From positions 34,523 to 98,522 of the forward strand of contig JAKOTN010000097.1 in NCBI GenBank assembly GCA_029776255.1: DNA of 64,000 nt, in the 5' to 3' direction. The number at the start of each line of letters is the position of its first letter. Position 1 is the stretch's first letter. This stretch comes from Pseudomonadota bacterium (GTDB lineage: Bacteria > Pseudomonadota > Gammaproteobacteria > Burkholderiales > Rhodocyclaceae). Below the pieces are notes generated by a model. That model did not search any database, was not told where the DNA came from, and worked only from the letters and a program-made list of their open reading frames with translations. Both the position numbers and the translations under genes were made by a program. Below are positions 46,009 through 60,624 of the stretch, piece after piece.

Positions 46009-46311
46009 TCAAGCAATCGCCGCCGGCAAGGCCGTCCAGACAATCCCCGTCGGCAGGCAGGCCCGCCCCAGACGCCCCTGAAAGCCGCGCGCCGGCAAGG
46101 GATAACAGCGCACATCGTCGGCCGCCGGCGCGATCAGAGCGGCAATCGCCGTCAGGCAGCGCACCTTGTCCGCCTCACCGCCGACCAGAAGGAAAACGCT
46201 GTACTCCAGCGGTGTCGCGTGCCGGCACATCTCGCGATGCACCCGTTGCAAGCGTGCCGGATCGGCGATGTCGTAGCCGATCACGAAACATAGCGACGCG
46301 TCAGAACGCAT
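46009..46311 (-). CDS. cas2: CRISPR-associated endonuclease Cas2 (second copy)
   Basis: VIGYDIADPARLQRVHREMCRHATPLEYSVFLLVGG; overlaps cas1 stop by 11 bp. Confidence 0.85.
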   Translation of the reverse strand: MRSDASLCFVIGYDIADPARLQRVHREMCRHATPLEYSVFLLVGGEADKVRCLTAIAALIAPAADDVRCYPLPARGFQGRLGRACLPTGIVWTALPAAIA

Positions 46312-47281
46312 CGTCGTTGGTCGCCGACGACACCGACGCGGCCACCGCGCCCGCCGCCATCACCGCCGACGCCACGTCGGCCACGCTGTCGGCCAGCCGC
46401 TTGCGCAAACGCGCCACCGGTTCCTCCCACTCCGCGTAAAAGCGCGTCCGGCCCGCCTTGCCCAACAGGCACGCGCCGGCCGCCAGCGAAAAATCGTCGG
46501 CGCGCAACTTCTCCGAACGAAACAGCATCAACACATGTTGCTCCACCTCCACCCGCAGCGGCTCCACCACATCGCAGGCCAGCGACTCGCGGCCGTAATC
46601 CAGGGCATGAAAAAAGCCCACGAAAGGGTCCAGCCCCGCCCCGTACAAGGCCAGCACCGCCTCCGCGTGCAACAGCGTATACCCCAGCGACAGCATCGCA
46701 TTCACCGGATCGCGCGGCGGACGCCGGTTGCGGCCGGCGAAATGCAGGCTTGCTGGCAGCAGATCGGCGAAACCCTCGAAATACGCCGCCGCGCCCGCGC
46801 CCTCCAGTCCGCGCAAGGCCGCCAGCGACGGCTGTGCATCCACCGCCTCGATCGCCGTCGCCAGGCGGCGCAAGGCCAGCGTCAACGGATAACGCGAACG
46901 CGGCTCGCTGTCGCGGCGACCGTCGAGAAACGCCGCCTGCGCGCGCAGCTTGCTCTCCACCACCGCCCGCGCGAAACGCAGGCAAAAATCGGCGTCCAGC
47001 GACAAACGGTACTGCGCCACCCGCCGCGCCGCGTCGTTGTGCGGCCGGCCGAGCAACAGCGTCGGCGCCGCCTTGCGGCCGGAAAGCACCACCACCCCGA
47101 TGCCGCGCTCGCCCAGCTTGCCAAGCAGCGCCGACGACACCGTCACATCGCCGCGCATGAACACCCGCGACAAGGGCGCCAACGGCACCGTGCCGACGCG
47201 CTCGCCATTTTCATAGAAGACCAGCGCCTCGCCATCCGCCTTCAGCGCCACCCCGCGCCGGTCGATATACAAACTGCTCAT
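46301..47281 (-). CDS. cas1: CRISPR-associated endonuclease Cas1
   Basis: MSSLYIDRRGVALKADGEALVFYE...GLEGAGAAAYFEGF...PVNAMLSLGYTLLHAEA...GFFHALDYGRESLACDVVEPLR (conserved E and H residues). Confidence 0.95.
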   Translation of the reverse strand: MSSLYIDRRGVALKADGEALVFYENGERVGTVPLAPLSRVFMRGDVTVSSALLGKLGERGIGVVVLSGRKAAPTLLLGRPHNDAARRVAQYRLSLDADFCLRFARAVVESKLRAQAAFLDGRRDSEPRSRYPLTLALRRLATAIEAVDAQPSLAALRGLEGAGAAAYFEGFADLLPASLHFAGRNRRPPRDPVNAMLSLGYTLLHAEAVLALYGAGLDPFVGFFHALDYGRESLACDVVEPLRVEVEQHVLMLFRSEKLRADDFSLAAGACLLGKAGRTRFYAEWEEPVARLRKRLADSVADVASAVMAAGAVAASVSSATNDDAF

Positions 47282-47298: not shown

Positions 47299-47586
47299 TC
47301 AGACGATCAGGAAATACGTCGTTGGCGCTTCCGTGGCGCGGCCCAGCAACTCGCGCCGCATGCGCGGATCGAGCTGGAAGATGTGCGCCCGGTCCTCCTC
47401 CGGATTCAGCAATTCCGTCAATCGTCGCCGCACTTCCCGCAAATCCGCCGCCGTCAGCCAGCACTCGAAAAACGATTTCTGACCGCCGACCTTGTAGCCC
47501 AGCAAAAAGCGGTGCACCCGTCGCCAGCGTTTCGGATCGCCGACGTCGTAACAGATCAGATACAGGGTGCGTGCCACATCGTTCAT
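47299..47586 (-). CDS. cas2: CRISPR-associated endonuclease Cas2 (canonical copy)
   Basis: TLYLICYDVGDPKRWRRVHRFLLGYKVGGQKSFFECWL. Confidence 0.92.
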   Translation of the reverse strand: MNDVARTLYLICYDVGDPKRWRRVHRFLLGYKVGGQKSFFECWLTAADLREVRRRLTELLNPEEDRAHIFQLDPRMRRELLGRATEAPTTYFLIV

Positions 47587-47721
47587 GGCTTTCACGATAC
47601 GCCTGCCGTTTTCGCCGGTCAGAAACCACAAGCTTGCCGTTAGCGCTGCCTGCCGCCTTCCTTGCGGTCAACGGTCGGTTATCGGACAAAAAGAACGGAT
47701 CGAAAACTCGGCAAGAACCTT

Positions 47722-50482
47722 GCGTTAATCCCTTTGATTTCAGGGCTGATTACTGAGCACATCATCGCCTACGGATCGGCGCGCGACCTGAGGTCTTAAT
47801 CCCTTTGATTTCAGGGCTGATTACTGAGCCTATTTGGCGTTGGAATGATTGCGGAGATTGTAACGTCTTAATCCCTTTGATTTCAGGGCTGATTACTGAG
47901 ACCACTATTCGTCAAATCGCCTCCCAAAAAGAAGTCTTAATCCCTTTGATTTCAGGGCTGATTACTGAGAGGTATTATTCTTCAAGGTTGTAAGAATCCA
48001 GCGGTCTTAATCCCTTTGATTTTAGGGCTGATTACTGAGAATAAAATCTGGAAGCGAAGCGGCACATCAAACGGTCTTAATCCCTTTGATTTCAGGGCTG
48101 ATTACTGAGCGGCTAGTGACTTCAATAATACTAAGTTAAGTCTTAATCCCTTTGATTTCAGGGCTGATTACTGAGCCGAGACATGCTTGAACTCGAACTA
48201 GCCGCAGAGGTCTTAATCCCTTTGATTTCAGGGCTGATTACTGAGAGACAACACGAATATACAAAAAAGCGCATTCAACGTCTTAATCCCTTTGATTTCA
48301 GGGCTGATTACTGAGGGAGAAGTGCCATGCACACTAAACTGCAAAAGCTGTCTTAATCCCTTTGATTTCAGGGCTGATTACTGAGTGATCTTCGATGAAA
48401 TCGAGAAGGTCTTCCAGTGTCTTAATCCCTTTGATTTCAGGGCTGATTACTGAGGAACCAACTGGCACGGAGGCCAACCATGAAAAAAAGTCTTAATCCC
48501 TTTGATTTCAGGGCTGATTACTGAGCATGGGGATGATCAATTACCTAGCAAGGAGCTTGAGTCTTAATCCCTTTGATTTCAGGGCTGATTACTGAGGTCG
48601 CCGTCCATGCAAACATCATGCAATATCCGTCTTAATCCCTTTGATTTCAGGGCTGATTACTGAGTAAACGCCAGTACCGTATGGAGCGGCTTTGTCGGGT
48701 CTTAATCCCTTTGATTTCAGGGCTGATTACTGAGGCGAACAAGTACGCTACTCGCGCGTACTACATGCGGTCTTAATCCCTTTGATTTCAGGGCTGATTA
48801 CTGAGGTCGCGGGGTTGCTTAATATCCCCGGCCTTACCACGTCTTAATCCCTTTGATTTCAGGGCTGATTACTGAGACGCGAAGTACACGCAAAGCTTGG
48901 CCCAGGGGCGTCTTAATCCCTTTGATTTCAGGGCTGATTACTGAGCGACGCCGCCCGGCTTCTACAGCAGGCGGCACAAAGTCTTAATCCCTTTGATTTC
49001 AGGGCTGATTACTGAGCGCTTTGCATCGGCCTCGACCTGCTGTTTGTCTTAATCCCTTTGATTTCAGGGCTGATTACTGAGGTACCCCCAATTTTTTAAG
49101 GAGTGATCCACCATGAAGTCTTAATCCCTTTGATTTCAGGGCTGATTACTGAGACGCGGGGTTTGTCGAGGCGTGAGCGCATGGTCCGTCTTAATCCCTT
49201 TGATTTCAGGGCTGATTACTGAGGCGGCGGATGCCGTTATAAAACCGGCGTTGCGGTCTTAATCCCTTTGATTTCAGGGCTGATTACTGAGGACTTGCGC
49301 TCGACATCGCGACGTTGCGGATGGTCTTAATCCCTTTGATTTCAGGGCTGATTACTGAGAGACCGCCAGCAGAAACGGCGAACCTTTCGCCGGTCTTAAT
49401 CCCTTTGATTTCAGGGCTGATTACTGAGGCACAAAAACGGCGGCTCGTAACGCCTACCTGGGGTCTTAATCCCTTTGATTTCAGGGCTGATTACTGAGTG
49501 CGTTAGAAATGCGACGCACCAAGATCGCCCAAAGTCTTAATCCCTTTGATTTCAGGGCTGATTACTGAGGCACAGGAGCAAGACAATGAAAAACACCACC
49601 TTCGTCTTAATCCCTTTGATTTCAGGGCTGATTACTGAGAAAGCCACCATAGGTATAGACGGATGGTTGACCAGTCTTAATCCCTTTGATTTCAGGGCTG
49701 ATTACTGAGAACCGGCACCAAAGGGACCTTTTCCAGGCGGCGCAGTCTTAATCCCTTTGATTTCAGGGCTGATTACTGAGAAAAAGTCAGCGACGGAGGC
49801 GTTGGCAGCCGCCCGCGTCTTAATCCCTTTGATTTCAGGGCTGATTACTGAGGCGTCGGCGCGGCGGAGTTCTACAAGGCCGTTGGTCTTAATCCCTTTG
49901 ATTTCAGGGCTGATTACTGAGGCACTCGAACGACTCGTCGATCTGGCCGCACTTCGTCTTAATCCCTTTGATTTCAGGGCTGATTACTGAGAAAGCCGAA
50001 TATATCGAAGACGGCGACGGCTTCCGGTCTTAATCCCTTTGATTTCAGGGCTGATTACTGAGGTTGGTTGCACCATATACCCAACGGCGGAAGCCGGTCT
50101 TAATCCCTTTGATTTCAGGGCTGATTACTGAGATGGCCACCTCAAAGACATTCACCGTGCCCGACGGTCTTAATCCCTTTGATTTCAGGGCTGATTACTG
50201 AGTGCTCGCCGCGAATAACGCGCTTGTCGCCATGTCTTAATCCCTTTGATTTCAGGGCTGATTACTGAGGTCCTGATGGGGCACAACATGTCGGAGTTCG
50301 ACGTCTTAATCCCTTTGATTTCAGGGCTGATTACTGAGGCTCCGGCCTCTTGGAGTCGATCAAGGAAGACATCGTCTTAATCCCTTTGATTTCAGGGCTG
50401 ATTACTGAGAGCTGGCGACCTGGAAAAACCAGACCGCCAACCGCGCGTCTTAATCCCTTTGATTTCAGGGCTGATTACTGAG
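47722..50482 (-). CRISPR. CRISPR array: 40 repeats of 36 bp, 39 spacers of 29-37 bp
   Basis: Plus-strand repeat GTCTTAATCCCTTTGATTTCAGGGCTGATTACTGAG. Minus orientation CTCAGTAATCAG-CCCT-GAAATCAA-AGGG-ATTAAGAC ends in an 8-nt ATTAAGAC tag. First repeat (47722) degenerate (GCG for GTC); repeat at 48004 has one C to T change. Confidence 0.99.
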
Positions 50483-50495
50483 TGCGCTCGCTAGT

Positions 50496-51516
50496 TTACC
50501 TCTTTTTTTCAGTGGTTTGCGGTGACCGTTCGCGGTTTTCGACGGCGGGCGCGGCGATGTCCGCGCGGAGGGTTTCGGTGAGGGTGTAGCCGCCAAGGCC
50601 GAAGGCGGTTTCCTTGCCGACGTGCAGCCATTGTCCCAGGCGTAGGAAAGGGAGAAAGGGCGCCAGCGGGCCATGCAGCCGCCAGTTGCCGAGCGCGCCG
50701 CCGAGGCGCATTTCGCGCTGCTGCCGCGAGGAGTAGCGCCGCCAGTCGCGCCAGGCCAGATCTTTTTCGTCGACCACATCGGCCGCCGCCCGGCGAAGCG
50801 GGGAAAAGTCGTCGAGCAGGGGGCCGTCGCCATGGAACTCGGCGAGCAGGCTGGCGCGACGGGCCAGGGCGAGCAGCAGCGCGCGCGCTTGCAGCTTTTC
50901 CGGCGGCAGGGCGTGACCGTTGGCCTGCAGGCGCAAGGGGGTGGTGAAGCGCAGGGTGAGAGCGGTCGGCGCGGGGTCGGGCGCCTCCGGTGAGGGGGAT
51001 CGCGGGGCGGTGGACGGCGATGGCGCTGTTTTCCGGCCGGTGGATTTCCTGTTCGCCGTCGCTGCCGCAATGCAGCAGCCGGGTGAGTTCGGCGGTGCCG
51101 TCGCCGGCGCCGATGCCGCGCGCCAGGGCGCGCCGCCAGGCGAGGACGATCAGCGGCAGTTCCCGCAGGGCGCGACCGATCAGGACGTGATGAAAGTTCA
51201 GCGTGTCGCCGACGGCCAGCAGGCGGCTGCCCCAGGGGGGCGGCTCGATGACGTGGGGCACCGGGATGCTGTCGAAGCGTTGCAGTTTGTGGGCCGCCAC
51301 CGGCGCGGGCGGGGCGAAGATCGCGGGATAGGGGCAGGTGTCGAGCAGCGGGCAGCCGGGGCATTCCGGGCGACGGGCGATGCAGGCCAGTTGGCGCAGG
51401 GCGTGCCCGAAGGCGCCGCGCAACATCGAGCCGCCGTAATCCGGTAGCCGCAAGGGCCGGGTGACCCGGCATTCGAGACGGTAGCGGGCGACGGGGAAGG
51501 TGGTGGGCAGGTTCAT
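50496..51516 (-). pseudogene. cas6: CRISPR RAMP endoribonuclease Cas6, apparent 1-nt frameshift
   Basis: N-terminal frame MNLPTTFPVARYRLECRVTRPLRLPDYGGSMLRGAFG...ENSAIAVHRPAIP, then a different frame ...APTALTLRFTTPLRLQANG...LGQWLHVGKETAFGLGGYTLTETL. Removing one base of the C5 tract (plus-strand G5, 50994-50998) joins them into ~339 aa. Confidence 0.85.
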
Positions 51517-53150
51517 GTGGGTGTGCGCAGGGCGGCGAGTTTGAGTTTTTTCCGTTCGTCCTTGAGGTCTATCCGGACGACTCGCGGTAGCCAGTGCTCG
51601 ATGGCGTCGGCGGCGGCCAGCCGCTCGTCCAGGGGCCAGGCGGCGGCGTCGCGGGCCAACGCCCGGGCGAGACCGTGGAAGGTGGCGTTGGGATTTTCCT
51701 TGTTGCCGCGCAGTTGGTCGGCGCGGGCGGCGAAGTCGGCGGCGAATTGGGCGATGCGGCGGTGATTCGGCGTCATTGCCGCCAGTTCGCGCTGACGTTG
51801 TTCCTCGGCTTGCGCGGCGGCGCGCTCGGCGGCGGCGCTGGCTTCCTTCTCGGCGGCCCGCTGGGCGAGTCTGGCGGCGTGTTGGGCGAGTTTTTCTTCC
51901 CGGCGCGCCAGGCGGTCGCGGTGGTCTTCGAGCAGCGGCCGGCTGCGGCGGGCGAGTTTTTGGCGCACGGCGTCGGCAAGATGGCGGTGCCGGTCGTCGC
52001 AGGCGTCGATCCACAGCCAGCCGAAGGGCAGCAGGCTGCCGTCGCCGTGGCGAGTCGGGCTGGCGTAGCGGTTTTGGCTGGTGGTGGGGCGGAATTCGAA
52101 GGTTTGTTTGCCACCGACGCGCGGGCCGAGGATTTTGATGCGGCGCAAACCGTCGAGCGTCACCGATTCGGCGCCGGCGTGACGCCCGACGCGTAACAGA
52201 AAGCCTTGCCGGGCGGCGAGCAGTTCGCCGAGTTCGTTGCCCAACAGGTCGGCGATCAGCGCCGACCAGTTCTTGTCGAGGAGGTGACCGAGAACCGGGT
52301 GCCGGAGTTCTTGTTCCAAACGCGGGCGGTAGTAGGCGTTGCAGGCGTCGCACAAGGCGCGCCATGAAATTCTGGCGCCGGGGCCGAAACGCATCTCGCC
52401 GACGAAGGCGGTCGGCAGGGCCTCGGGAATGGTTTCGAGAAAGATTTTTAATTCCGAATTCGGGTCCTTGTCGCCGGGACGCGGCAGCCGCTTGCGCTTG
52501 CTGATGGCGTAGAGCACGCGGCCGGGTGGCGGGTTGTCGGCGTCTTCGGGGTTGGCGTCGGCCAGCGCCAGCAGGCGGAAGGGGTCGTTCTGGAATTCGC
52601 CGGCCCGGTAACCCAAAAGGCGTTGCTCGATGGTGGCGGCGGAGTTCTTGCCGGAGCGATCCTGCCAGTCGATATCGCTGTCGAGCGATTTCTGGTTCAG
52701 CCAGGCGGTGCGGATGCTGCCCTTGAGCGAACTGCCGGGCAGGTAGGGCGCGTTGTCGAGCGGCCGGTAGGCGGTGCGCGCCAGTTGGAAATTGTTGTAA
52801 GTGGCTTCGCCGTTCGGGTCGCGATGCGTCGGTTGTCCGATCTTGTCGGCGTATTCGCGGGCCAGCGCCGGCACGATGTCGACTTGATGGCGGGCGAGTT
52901 GGGCCAAGCCGGCCGCCGATTCACGGAAGAAGCGTTGAATGGCGCCGATGGGTTCGGCCTGCTCGGCGAGCCTGGCGAGTTGCCGGTGTTCTTTTTCGCT
53001 CAGGGCGTCGGCGAGATCGGCCGCGTCGAAGGCGTGCAGCAGGCCGTCGTGGATGACGAAGCCGCTGGGTTCGTAAACGTCGCCGCAGCCGATGTGCACC
53101 GGGGAAAGAGTGGAAATGGCCAGGACGCGGGTGGACGGGTGGGTGCTCAC
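51513..53150 (-). CDS. csm5: Type III-A RAMP protein Csm5 with long C-terminal extension (GTG start)
   Basis: LAISTLSPVHIGCGDVYEPSGFVIHDGLLHAFD...YLPGSSLKGSIRTAWLNQ. Confidence 0.9.
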   Translation of the reverse strand: MSTHPSTRVLAISTLSPVHIGCGDVYEPSGFVIHDGLLHAFDAADLADALSEKEHRQLARLAEQAEPIGAIQRFFRESAAGLAQLARHQVDIVPALAREYADKIGQPTHRDPNGEATYNNFQLARTAYRPLDNAPYLPGSSLKGSIRTAWLNQKSLDSDIDWQDRSGKNSAATIEQRLLGYRAGEFQNDPFRLLALADANPEDADNPPPGRVLYAISKRKRLPRPGDKDPNSELKIFLETIPEALPTAFVGEMRFGPGARISWRALCDACNAYYRPRLEQELRHPVLGHLLDKNWSALIADLLGNELGELLAARQGFLLRVGRHAGAESVTLDGLRRIKILGPRVGGKQTFEFRPTTSQNRYASPTRHGDGSLLPFGWLWIDACDDRHRHLADAVRQKLARRSRPLLEDHRDRLARREEKLAQHAARLAQRAAEKEASAAAERAAAQAEEQRQRELAAMTPNHRRIAQFAADFAARADQLRGNKENPNATFHGLARALARDAAAWPLDERLAAADAIEHWLPRVVRIDLKDERKKLKLAALRTPT

Positions 53151-54127
53151 GGTGTGTGCTCCAGGGCGATGGGAACGACGGGGCTGTAACCTTGGTGTAC
53201 GGTGGCGGTTTCGGCCTTGGAAAGCCGGCCGTCGCCACCGAGTCCCTGGCCGATGAACAGGCGTCGCCGCCAGCCGTCGGCCGGGGTGAACACGGCGCCG
53301 GTGGCGGCGAGCAGGATCGGGGTTTTGAACGGTTTTCCGGTCGTCGCCAGAATATTGCCGTGTCGGCCGAAGCGGGTCAGTACCCGCCAATAGCTGCGTT
53401 CGGCGGTGAAACCTTGCCCTTGCGGCGCGCACGGGGCGAGGGTCCAGTACGCGCTGGCGGCGGCCGGCGACGCGAAGGCGGCGGGTTGGAGGCTGTCGAC
53501 GGTGAATTTTCCGAGACCGACGCTGGCGTCGCGGCCATATCCGCCGTCGCCGAGCGCGGCCAACAGGGCGACGGTTTCCGCCGCGCTGACGCGCTGTTCG
53601 TCGAGAAGCAGGTAAAGGTCGATCTTCTGGTCGACGGCATGGTGGATTCGCGGCGCGGTGTAGGGAGCGAAGGCGCCCTCGCCGGTGGTGCCGCTCAGGC
53701 GATTGAGGGTGTTGTGCGCCTGGATGTCGTGTCGTGGCGCCTGGCCGCCGTAAGCGACGGTGTCGTCGTCGGCCACCCGCGGCATCGCCAGGAGGGTTTC
53801 GCCGGCATGCCGGCAGGCAATCCAGCGTTTTTGACGGTCGGCCTTGCGGCTGGCCTTGCAGGCGTCGGGGCCGGCGGCGAGATCGTCCAGGTGCCGTGGC
53901 AGGGTGGGACGCGGCAGGTAGCCGCTCGGGAAGCCGTCGGAGACGACCAGCCACGGCTTGCCGGTGGTGTAGCCGTCGAGGCGGCGTCGCAACTCGGCGT
54001 CGCCGGCGGTTTCACGCAAGGTCCAGCACAATTGACCGAAGAGGGTGTCGCCGGCCAGTGGCGTGCCGAGCGGCGTGCGCAGGGTCAGCGTGGCGCGGTG
54101 CAGGACGTGATGGGTGGCGTCGCTCAT
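53147..54127 (-). CDS. csm4: Type III-A RAMP protein Csm4
   Basis: HRATLTLRTPLGTPLAGDTLFGQLCWTLRE...GYGRDASVGLGKFTVD. Confidence 0.9.
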   Translation of the reverse strand: MSDATHHVLHRATLTLRTPLGTPLAGDTLFGQLCWTLRETAGDAELRRRLDGYTTGKPWLVVSDGFPSGYLPRPTLPRHLDDLAAGPDACKASRKADRQKRWIACRHAGETLLAMPRVADDDTVAYGGQAPRHDIQAHNTLNRLSGTTGEGAFAPYTAPRIHHAVDQKIDLYLLLDEQRVSAAETVALLAALGDGGYGRDASVGLGKFTVDSLQPAAFASPAAASAYWTLAPCAPQGQGFTAERSYWRVLTRFGRHGNILATTGKPFKTPILLAATGAVFTPADGWRRRLFIGQGLGGDGRLSKAETATVHQGYSPVVPIALEHTP

Positions 54128-54130
54128 GAT

Positions 54131-54841
54131 TCAGGCGACCGCGACGAAGGCGTCGATGGCGTCGAAGTCGGCCTGGATCGGACGGCCGTCGAGCGTCAGA
54201 TCGCGCAGGGCGAGCTTGCCGTAGCCGCGCGAGCCGGAGCCGCCGAGGCTGTCGGCTTCCAGCAGCTTGAGGCCGCGCAGCAGCAAGGGCAGCAATTCCT
54301 CGTCGTCGATCACTTTCAGCGACAGCCGGAAATCGAACTCGGCGCCGGCGATGACGCGCTCGATGAAGCGCGGGTCTTTGGCGACGCCGGCGATGCGATC
54401 GATGCGGTTTTCGCTCTTGGCTTCGGTGACCAGGAGGTGACGCGCTTCAAGGCTGGCCAGCCAGTCGGCGTTGAGCGCGCAATCCCAGAAGGCGATGCGG
54501 GTGGGGCCGATCGCTCTGACCAGATCCTCGACGTTGCCGCCGGGCGCGCCGCCGAACAGGCGCAGCAGGTCGCGCGCCGCCGGCGTGTCGTGCCGACGCA
54601 GGTGCTCGAAGGAGAAGGGCTGGCCGTTGGCGACGCCGACCAGCCCAAGCCGCCATTCGAGCAGCGAGCGGATCTTGCCCTTGAGCGAGGAACCGGGAAT
54701 GTAGGGCTTGTCGTTGAGCGGGTTCTTGATCACCGGGCTATCGGTGCCGCCGATGCGCATCTCGGTGTCGCCGGCGCCGATATGCAGGCCGCTTTTCAGG
54801 ACGAGGGTGGCGTTGAGTTGTTTGATCCGGGTGAGTTGCAT
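54131..54841 (-). CDS. csm3: Type III-A RAMP protein Csm3
   Basis: LVLKSGLHIGAGDTEMRIGGTDSPVIKNPLNDKPYIPGSSLKGKIRSLLEW. Confidence 0.94.
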   Translation of the reverse strand: MQLTRIKQLNATLVLKSGLHIGAGDTEMRIGGTDSPVIKNPLNDKPYIPGSSLKGKIRSLLEWRLGLVGVANGQPFSFEHLRRHDTPAARDLLRLFGGAPGGNVEDLVRAIGPTRIAFWDCALNADWLASLEARHLLVTEAKSENRIDRIAGVAKDPRFIERVIAGAEFDFRLSLKVIDDEELLPLLLRGLKLLEADSLGGSGSRGYGKLALRDLTLDGRPIQADFDAIDAFVAVA

Positions 54842-54861
54842 GGGGTGAGCTCCTTGGATGT

Positions 54862-55233
54862 TCAGCCGCGCAGGGCCTTGAGGAAGCCGAGGACGGCTTC
54901 GAAGTGCAGACGGAAATGGTCGAGCGCCTTGGCGCTGGTGGTCGTTTTCAGGCACTCGCGAAACCAGAGGACGAATTGTTCGTCGACCAGCTTGCGCCCC
55001 TTGGCATAGGCGACCTTGGCGTTGAGCATGCGGATGAAGGCTTCGTACTGGGTGAACTTGTTGTCGTCGCCGTCGATGCGTTCCTGCCAGCCGACAAGCT
55101 CATCGTAAAAGCGGCGAATCTGCGTCGGCTTGTTGAGGGTTGACGTCGCCTGATTCAGTCGCTGGGCGACTTCTTCGGCGTGTTGATTGAACAGTTCCGG
55201 ATCGGGCGGGTCGGCGGTGAAATTGAAGGGCAT
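54862..55233 (-). CDS. csm2: Type III-A small subunit Csm2
   Basis: STLNKPTQIRRFYDELVGWQERI...FIRMLNAKVAYAKGRK..; between cas10 and csm3. Confidence 0.9.
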   Translation of the reverse strand: MPFNFTADPPDPELFNQHAEEVAQRLNQATSTLNKPTQIRRFYDELVGWQERIDGDDNKFTQYEAFIRMLNAKVAYAKGRKLVDEQFVLWFRECLKTTTSAKALDHFRLHFEAVLGFLKALRG

Positions 55234-55318: not shown

Positions 55319-57946
55319 TCATTGGCGACGACGGTAGAGCAGCACCGATAACGGTAACCGATAGGCGCCCTTGTGGGCGTTGAGCGCGCCGCCGATTTCA
55401 CGGAGGGCGTCGGCGAGTAATTGGTCGCGGGATGCCGGCGCGCCACCGTTGCTCTTGATGCGTTCGCGGAAGAAGCGGCTGAGCCGGTAGTGAAGCCGCG
55501 AGCGCCAGATCGCGTCTCGCGGCGCCGTGCTCTCGGCCTTGTCGGCGAGATGCAGCAGGGTGTAGGCCAAGCCGCTGGAAAATGCCGCGTCGTGCTGGTC
55601 GGCACGGGCCATCAGCGCTTCGAGCGCCGCCAGCCGCGAGCCCAGCAGCGTGTGCCAGTCGCGCCAGGGGATGGCGTGCCGCCAGAGGCTGGCGGCGTTT
55701 TTACCGGGAAGGCGCTTGGCGTCGTGCAGGGCTTTCTCGGCGCTGCGCGCGAGATGGCGGACCGGGGTTCGCGGGTGGGTCATGGTCAGACCGGCGGAGA
55801 AACTCAGGCGCGGGTTGGCGACGTAGGCGGAAAATTTCTCGCGTAGCTCGCCGGCCAGCGCGAGGGTGGATTCCCAGGGGCCGATCAGGAAGAAGTCGTC
55901 GCCGCCGGCGAAAACGGTATAGGTGTGCCGGTAGCGCGCGGTCTGACACGCGTCGTGTCCGTGCTCGCAATACCAGGGTAGCCAGAGCGCGAAAAAGGCG
56001 TTGATCTGTCGCGACAGCGAGGCCATTTTGGCGAAGGTGGGTTTTTCAAGGCCGTTCTGAAACATGTCACCGAGGTCGTCGATGTCGCCCTTGAGCGTCA
56101 GCAAGGCGATTTCGCCTTGCCAGCGCTCGCCGTCGGTCGGTCGGCGATCTTCGCAGGCAAGATGGTGCAAGGTCTTGATCTGCCCAGGAACGACGTCGTC
56201 TTGCCAGGCGCCGTATTTTTCGGCGGTGCGCACGTCTTCCGCGTCGAAACGCGGCACGTGGCTGTTGACGAAGCGCCGGGCGTAGCCGCGCCATACCCCG
56301 CCATCGGCGTCGGCGGCGTCGAAATCCCATGTCCGCAGCAAGGCGCCGTTGCGAACCAGTTCGCCGTATTGACCGGATTCGTCGGCGGCCGGAACGATCG
56401 CCAGTCGATAGCCGAAATAGTCGAGTCCCAGCGGCGAGGGTAGCGCGGTCGTGTGTCGCGCGACCAGCAGACGGGCTTTGCGCGTCAGTTCTTCGCCGAT
56501 GCGGATCTGGTCGTCGGCCAGGGTGGACAAGGCATACGCCCGGCGTGCGGAAGGCGCGGCGTCGGCTGGGTGCCTGCCGTTGATCCGGCAAACGCCGAGA
56601 GTGTTGTCGAAACGGTCGAGAAAGCCGTTGAAGACGCTGACGGTGTCGGCGGCGCAAAGGTCGAAACGCCGATGCTTGGCGACATCGAGGGCGGTAAACA
56701 GGCGTTGTTGTAACTCGCCGAAGCGGCCGGTGGAGAAATCGTCGCACGACGCCGGGGTGCTGGCCAGGCCGACGCCGATCTCGCCGTAGGCATGCTCGAG
56801 ACACCAGGCGTTGAGCTCTTGGCGGCAGCGGGCGACGGCGGCGCTCGCGTCGGCGGTGTTCGGCGCGACGATCAGGAACTTGCCGGCGGCGTTGATGATT
56901 TGCGCGCTCGGTGGCAGGGCGAGTGCGTCGAGCAGTTTGAGCGCCGCGCATTCGGCGAGCAGCGACACCTGGAAGGAACGGCCGCGCAGCAGTTTATGGG
57001 CGTTTTTTTGCGTTTCTCCACCTTCGGCGAAGATGAAGTTTTGAATGCCGAAAAAATCGCCCTGCACGAGCAGGATTTTGCTATCGCCCCACCCGTCGCG
57101 CAGATGGTGTACTTCTTCCGTGCCTCGCGCGCGGTGCCAGCGCCACAGCGCGGTGGCCAGCGCCGCCGTGGCCTTGCTGTGGTCGTACAGCGACACTTCC
57201 GGTTTTACGCCGAAGGCGGTGGCCGAGGGAATGGCATGCGTGACGGTGAGCCACAGGCTGTCGAAATGGTCGAGCCACAACGGCAGGTTGGCAAGGTGGG
57301 ATTTCGGGATGCGTCGCACGCCGTCGAGCAGCGCGTTCCACAAGGTCAGGTATTCGGTGCGGGCGTCGGCGTCATTGGACGGGGTGCACGCGCCGACGGT
57401 GCGGGGGAAGATGCCGTCAGGCGAGAGGGGCCGCAGCGGGTAACGCCATTCCAGTTCGCCTTCCTTGACGCCGGGCCGGTGGATCTGTTCGAGCAGGGTC
57501 AGCAGACGGGCACGGTAATGGTTGTCGCGTTCCTTGCTGTTGTTGTATGTCTTGACGAACTCGTCGCGTTCGAATCCCGAAGCCACGCGGTCGGCGGTGG
57601 CGACGATCCATTGCAGGAAGGTGTCGGGGCGGTGGTGCGCGCTGGCGGCGTTGACCGCCGAGTCGGTGGCCTTGCCGTCGGCGCCGGCAAACGGCGAACA
57701 GTCGCGGCGCAGATCGGGGAAATGACCGGTTGCCTCAAGGGCGTCCCAGGCCAGGGCCGTGTAAGCGGCGTGGATGTGGCTGTGGTGGCCGTCGGGTGAG
57801 TTGCCGTGCCGGTGCCACGGGCAGTATAGATTTTTGTGTGCGTCGAGCCGGCCGTCATGGTCAATGCCGGCGCGCTCGGCCAGCTTGCCGATGTCGTGCA
57901 TGAAGGCGGCCAGCGCGATGCGGGCCGATTCGTTCAAAAGTGTCAT
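55319..57946 (-). CDS. cas10: Type III-A Cas10/Csm1
   Basis: HD motif MHDIGKLAERAG; palm TVFAGGDDFFLIG; 875 aa. Confidence 0.95.
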   Translation of the reverse strand: MTLLNESARIALAAFMHDIGKLAERAGIDHDGRLDAHKNLYCPWHRHGNSPDGHHSHIHAAYTALAWDALEATGHFPDLRRDCSPFAGADGKATDSAVNAASAHHRPDTFLQWIVATADRVASGFERDEFVKTYNNSKERDNHYRARLLTLLEQIHRPGVKEGELEWRYPLRPLSPDGIFPRTVGACTPSNDADARTEYLTLWNALLDGVRRIPKSHLANLPLWLDHFDSLWLTVTHAIPSATAFGVKPEVSLYDHSKATAALATALWRWHRARGTEEVHHLRDGWGDSKILLVQGDFFGIQNFIFAEGGETQKNAHKLLRGRSFQVSLLAECAALKLLDALALPPSAQIINAAGKFLIVAPNTADASAAVARCRQELNAWCLEHAYGEIGVGLASTPASCDDFSTGRFGELQQRLFTALDVAKHRRFDLCAADTVSVFNGFLDRFDNTLGVCRINGRHPADAAPSARRAYALSTLADDQIRIGEELTRKARLLVARHTTALPSPLGLDYFGYRLAIVPAADESGQYGELVRNGALLRTWDFDAADADGGVWRGYARRFVNSHVPRFDAEDVRTAEKYGAWQDDVVPGQIKTLHHLACEDRRPTDGERWQGEIALLTLKGDIDDLGDMFQNGLEKPTFAKMASLSRQINAFFALWLPWYCEHGHDACQTARYRHTYTVFAGGDDFFLIGPWESTLALAGELREKFSAYVANPRLSFSAGLTMTHPRTPVRHLARSAEKALHDAKRLPGKNAASLWRHAIPWRDWHTLLGSRLAALEALMARADQHDAAFSSGLAYTLLHLADKAESTAPRDAIWRSRLHYRLSRFFRERIKSNGGAPASRDQLLADALREIGGALNAHKGAYRLPLSVLLYRRRQ

Positions 57947-57965: not shown

Positions 57966-60362
<2,397 letters not shown>

Positions 60363-60624
60363 TTATCAATGGAATGGCGAAATCGCAAGCTTGTGGCGTG
60401 GCAAGCGATCCGCCGGGACGATGATCGGGTGAGGGTGTCTTTTTTGGCCGGGCCAGGGTTTGCGCGATGATGAATCGCGGATGAACGGGGCATTAAGTCG
60501 TTGTTCAGCTTTCCGGCGATAAGGTGCGCTCCTGACCGCGGCTGGATCGAGACGCCGTGGCAGAACGCGGCGCGTCGCTGTTGTGCGGCGCGCCGATCCA
60601 TTACTGATAAAAGGACCACGACAG

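Follow-up and report, generated by a model that had tools for sequence, protein, structure and literature searches.

The window analysed here, a 64,000-nt stretch of contig JAKOTN010000097.1 (assembly GCA_029776255.1; contig C143 in our numbering), carries a type III-A (Csm) CRISPR-Cas locus with its own adaptation genes. The host genome, which we take to be Candidatus Accumulibacter, is 3.79 Mb in size and estimated to be 100% complete. On the minus strand the locus runs TIGR02584, TIGR02221, cas10, csm2, csm3, csm4, csm5, cas6, array, cas2, cas1 and a second cas2-like gene, and all five genes that assign it to type III-A (cas10/csm1, csm2, csm3, csm4 and csm5) were recognized by PADLOC (Table 1). 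A preliminary description of the array had proposed that its CRISPR RNAs (crRNAs) are antisense to mRNA, and that its spacers favour translation start sites. We found good support for the antisense orientation; the preference for start sites is not established.

The array, its crRNA strand and the surrounding genes

Read on the minus strand, the repeat forms a CCCU/AGGG stem followed by exactly 8 nt (handle AUUAAGAC); the 8-nt handle after the stem is ATTAAGAC. Immediately ahead of the first repeat lies a sequence similar to the one found in five related Accumulibacter arrays (L012, L050, L052, L324 and L328), with a TAnAAT-like box, and the repeat at the opposite end is degenerate. Because of the handle and stem, the conserved leader and the degenerate distal repeat, transcription of the array is assigned to the minus strand, with its start immediately behind cas6. 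This assignment comes from repeat and leader anatomy. The array is presumably driven by its own promoter.

The cas1-cas2 pair and cas6 lie beside the array. The cas6 frame is apparently broken in this assembly: its N-terminal frame matches PADLOC Cas6, and its C-terminal frame (50496-50936) matches Pfam CRISPR_Cas6. The split near 50985-51000 may reflect either faulty assembly or a genuine lesion. The second cas2-like gene overlaps the end of cas1 and is additional to the cas2 next to the array. The GGDD motif of Cas10 and the two accessory CRISPR proteins are parts relevant to predicted cyclic-oligoadenylate signalling activated by target RNA.

Table 1. Locus features, motif-bearing and mapped spacers, and two loci elsewhere in the same genome (positions refer to the window unless a contig is named; distances are from the gene start)
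Feature	Position	Strand	Evidence or remark
Second cas2-like gene	46009..46311	-	
cas1, without reverse transcriptase domain	46301..47275	-	
cas2	47299..47589	-	
CRISPR array, 40 repeats of 36 nt, 39 spacers	47722..50482	- (crRNA strand)	repeat CTCAGTAATCAGCCCTGAAATCAAAGGGATTAAGAC
Degenerate terminal repeat, leader-distal	47722..47757	-	ends AACGC, not AAGAC
Spacer 4, head-scaffolding gene of LPPA15-like phage	47970..48003	+	sense, 581 nt
Spacer 5, gene shared with spacer 34	48040..48073	+	sense, 17 nt
Spacer 9, GGAG-7-ATG in target sense	48316..48349	+	no IMG/VR match
Spacer 11, GGAGG-ATG in target sense	48455..48489	+	IMG/VR degenerate matches only, 23-25/35 identical
Spacer 17, phage DNA methyltransferase gene	48877..48909	+	sense, 139 nt
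Spacer 18, small BPP-1-like gene upstream of spacer 20 target	48946..48980	+	sense, 35 nt
Spacer 19, 138-nt BPP-1-like gene	49017..49045	+	sense, 91 nt
Spacer 20, AAGGAG-9-ATG, start of Gp2.5-like single-stranded-DNA-binding-protein gene	49082..49117	+	36/36 in L237
Spacer 27, AGGAG-7-ATG in target sense	49570..49603	+	degenerate match only, 22/34 identical
Spacer 33, head-scaffolding gene of Septimatrevirus phages	49992..50026	+	sense, 57 nt; 35/35
Spacer 34, nuclease-like gene of LPPA15-like phages (weak Holliday-resolvase PHROG match)	50063..50096	+	sense, 100 nt; 34/34
Leader/promoter-proximal stretch with TAAACT box, overlaps cas6 3' end	50483..50560	-	promoter presumed
cas6	50496..51514	-	apparent frameshift near 50985-51000
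csm5	51513..53216	-	PADLOC
csm4	53147..54127	-	PADLOC
csm3	54131..54844	-	PADLOC
csm2	54862..55230	-	PADLOC
cas10/csm1 with GGDD motif	55319..57937	-	PADLOC and motif in sequence
TIGR02221 (TM1812) family CRISPR accessory protein	57966..59156	-	family match
TIGR02584 (NE0113, 'ring nuclease Csm6') accessory protein	59129..60619	-	family match
Type I-C array, 167 repeats (L321, L323)	G000:C57 27717-40280		used as control
Retron II-A pair, reverse transcriptase and NDT-type effector (L322)	G000:C68 4544-6399		sole RVT_1 match in genome

Orientation of the spacers relative to phage mRNA

We scanned both strands of all 39 spacers for a Shine-Dalgarno (SD)-ATG pattern, defined as GGAG, GAGG or AGGA followed by 4-11 nt and ATG; the GGAG-ATG version served as the strict test. 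Five spacers passed on the + strand, four of them with GGAG (9, 11, 20 and 27) and one weaker (spacer 21: GAGG, 9 nt), and none passed on the minus strand. The preliminary description had listed the same four spacers, and its numbering, coordinates and motifs held. For spacer 20 a phage start site is proven: it matches a BPP-1-like phage contig at all positions, across both the SD and the start codon. Degenerate scans for spacers 9, 27 and 11 gave no true protospacer. Spacer 35, put forward as a further start site, does begin with ATG; it has no SD inside, and no protospacer was found for it. Open + frames, which had been described as protein-like in most other spacers but not as strong evidence, are uninformative because the spacers hold 91 open frames on the + strand and 87 on the minus strand, with no strand signal.

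Nine protospacers were reliable, eight from the window array and one from a spacer of a related array. The phage genes were called by a small script, whose output matched the annotation on three test stretches. Spacers 33, 34, 5 and 4 lead to Septimatrevirus/LPPA15-like phages, and spacers 20, 18, 19 and 17 to BPP-1-like phages. All nine protospacers (9/9) are mRNA-sense, so that the crRNAs, on the strand assigned above, would be complementary to the transcripts. Three further hits, of spacers 1, 31 and 10, were dropped as chance; they comprised bacterial aldehyde-dehydrogenase and TPR genes found among 399 genomes and, separately, a 27/29 match with E 0.1. No further spacers mapped to the whole phage contigs, a scan of IMG/VR with the repeat gave no match, and the plasmid collection gave no convincing match. 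The arrays L012, L053, L061 and L324 had no match in the phage collection.

The type I-C locus of the same genome, which holds a second Cas1, provided a control. Its array gave 164 distinct spacers, and with BPP-1-like and LPPA15-like phages as targets, 18 of them mapped, 8 sense and 10 antisense. The sense bias of the III-A array (9/9 vs 8/18) was significant (Fisher P 0.009). In a wider type III sample of 47 arrays of the same repeat family with 940 spacers, GGAG-ATG occurred 30 times in sense and 5 times in antisense. Pairs of overlapping spacers from homologous phage sites lay on the same strand in 24 of 25 type III cases and in 11 of 16 I-C cases.

One array, from a Zoogloea ramigera contig (L015), had SD-ATG in antisense in 2 of 16 spacers and none in sense; it was the only such array in the first set, and both motifs look weak.

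These results indicate that the crRNAs are antisense to mRNA, as had been proposed, which is already known behaviour of type III systems. The SD-ATG motifs appear in one orientation because the spacers read mRNA-sense on the + strand. Taken together, we consider this probably an ordinary type III-A array with minus-strand transcription, in which the spacers that persist have a crRNA complementary to phage mRNA. Csm-Cas10 acts only when the crRNA pairs with a transcript, so wrong-strand spacers would give no protection and would not be kept. The number of SD-ATG spacers would then stem from chance together with targets in compact phage regions where genes are short, with no dedicated start-site or RNA-capture mechanism.

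Start sites among the targets

Random sense windows drawn from 3.6 Mb of phage DNA would be expected to give 0.41 GGAG-ATG spacers, where the array has four among 39 (P 8e-4; with a composition-matched null, P 5e-4), in a post hoc test of a pattern first spotted in this same array. To that extent, the earlier statement that the four exceed uniform phage sampling stood. Taken by itself, this first phage-window null pointed to a strong excess, most of which disappeared once the I-C controls were considered. The strict motif was present in 26 of 892 spacers (2.9%) of the other related type III arrays and, on either strand, in 27 of 917 (2.9%) of the I-C control arrays of the family. Because the two rates are equal, there is no family-wide type III excess of start sites by the strict test, and a bias of acquisition or selection toward mRNA 5' ends, as had been proposed, is not established.

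The four spacers may be a chance cluster noticed as striking, for which we see a slightly less than even chance; this concerns their number only and is compatible with an ordinary III-A array. In its favour, heterogeneity among 43 type III arrays was not significant (permutation P 0.12), and the closely related array L012 has 0/31. Against it, 4/39 differs from the other type III arrays (P 0.03) and from I-C (13/484, P 0.03), and the SCELSE-3 array L053 is likewise high (5/66).

Several results weigh against an array shaped by strand selection and chance only. In the GGAG test, both type III and I-C arrays exceeded the phage-window null, which is imperfect for this very reason. With a position-weight model of phage start regions, I-C matched the null (3.3% vs 3.2%) and type III was about 1.7 times above it (4.8% vs 2.7%, P 2e-4; random phage windows, 2.7-3.2%). 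Type III thus exceeded I-C by a factor of about 1.5 (one-sided P 0.06), and a modest excess of that size is possible. Dinucleotide shuffles also leave a possible modest type III excess (30 vs 9.6; I-C, 13 vs 12.2). Furthermore, 7 of the 8 mapped window protospacers have their first position no more than 145 nt from a gene start, compared with 3 of 18 for the own I-C array, and with the outside spacer included the count is 7/9 vs 1.9 expected (P 4e-4) and vs 3/18 for I-C (Fisher P 0.004), the 145-nt distance having been picked after seeing the data and the sample being 8-9 protospacers. Two of these spacers target a single gene, another two target neighbouring genes, and several of the genes are only 138-429 nt long. 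Since the distance is post hoc, the genes shared or adjacent and some very short, the clustering near gene starts is suggestive and serves as a lead only.

These figures would fit a real but modest 5'-proximal preference, arising from accessible ribosome-binding sites, early-transcribed 5' ends, or uptake at DNA opened just downstream of starts. Two species, moreover, independently target the start site GCAAGGAGACGAC[AG]ATGCTTAA, which is held by spacer 17 of L053 and spacer 10 of L324, arrays of two genomes. According to a review that covers adaptation by Streptococcus thermophilus type III-A (Zhang et al. 2021, via PMC9048733), spacers there are enriched 10-50 bp downstream of start codons, so that this system, also III-A and free of reverse transcriptase (RT), resembles ours in start proximity. 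It differs in that the enrichment is on the encoding strand, was seen for host genes, is attributed to displaced single-stranded DNA and, per the same review, does not directly give defence; here, the crRNAs are antisense to mRNA and the targets are phages. Given also that the strict motif test equals I-C, that relative position within the gene shows no difference between type III and I-C (in a run that still included the three later-dropped hits), and that the cut-off is post hoc for so few protospacers, some in one gene, we regard such a preference as unlikely.

The L053 and L050 arrays (G187:C105 and G079:C90) each hold several spacers on near-identical sites of diverged homologous phages, offset by 1-4 nt; in one example of such nearly coincident targets, three spacers lie on ..CATCGTGTCGGCGA.

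Acquisition, selection and the type III strand bias

That every mapped protospacer is sense would also be expected of RNA-templated acquisition, with an RT acting in trans to capture mRNA 5' ends. RT-Cas1 type III systems have an RT fused or adjacent to cas1. Here, in agreement with the preliminary description, we found no RT domain in cas1 and no RT in the locus, and the only RT of the genome is that of the retron II-A pair, next to the gene for the NDT effector. In other type III systems the strand bias is explained without an RT. No RNA-templated acquisition is needed, and we consider it highly improbable.

In a Thermus type III system that lacks an RT, spacers were taken up strand-neutrally and selection gave rise to the bias (2020, PMC7515739). 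The likeness to the present array is that no RT is needed, that the retained spacers are complementary to phage transcripts, and that a positional bias comes from selection for protective spacers. The Thermus bias is toward the early-injected phage region, whereas the array described here is a natural Accumulibacter array known from its sequence. A coding-strand preference of type III spacers in natural arrays is also reported by Vink et al. 2021 (PMC8482600); there, too, the crRNA handle is the 3' end of the repeat, with ATTGAAAC in place of our ATTAAGAC. A text search of that paper found no start-codon analysis. We infer that the strand bias comes from post-acquisition selection and not from biased uptake.

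A more far-reaching idea is that this RT-less III-A system keeps spacers chiefly from the opening ~150 nt of phage transcripts, ribosome-binding sites among them, where a crRNA might activate Cas10 and at the same time obstruct the start of translation. We hold this to be quite doubtful. If the 5'-end signal were true, it would suggest transcript accessibility or timing as a rule for useful type III guides. For the strand bias itself, the contrast within one genome is more direct: with phage groups in common, the III-A array keeps only mRNA-sense targets, whereas the I-C array keeps both strands, which supports strand bias as a property of the type III system.
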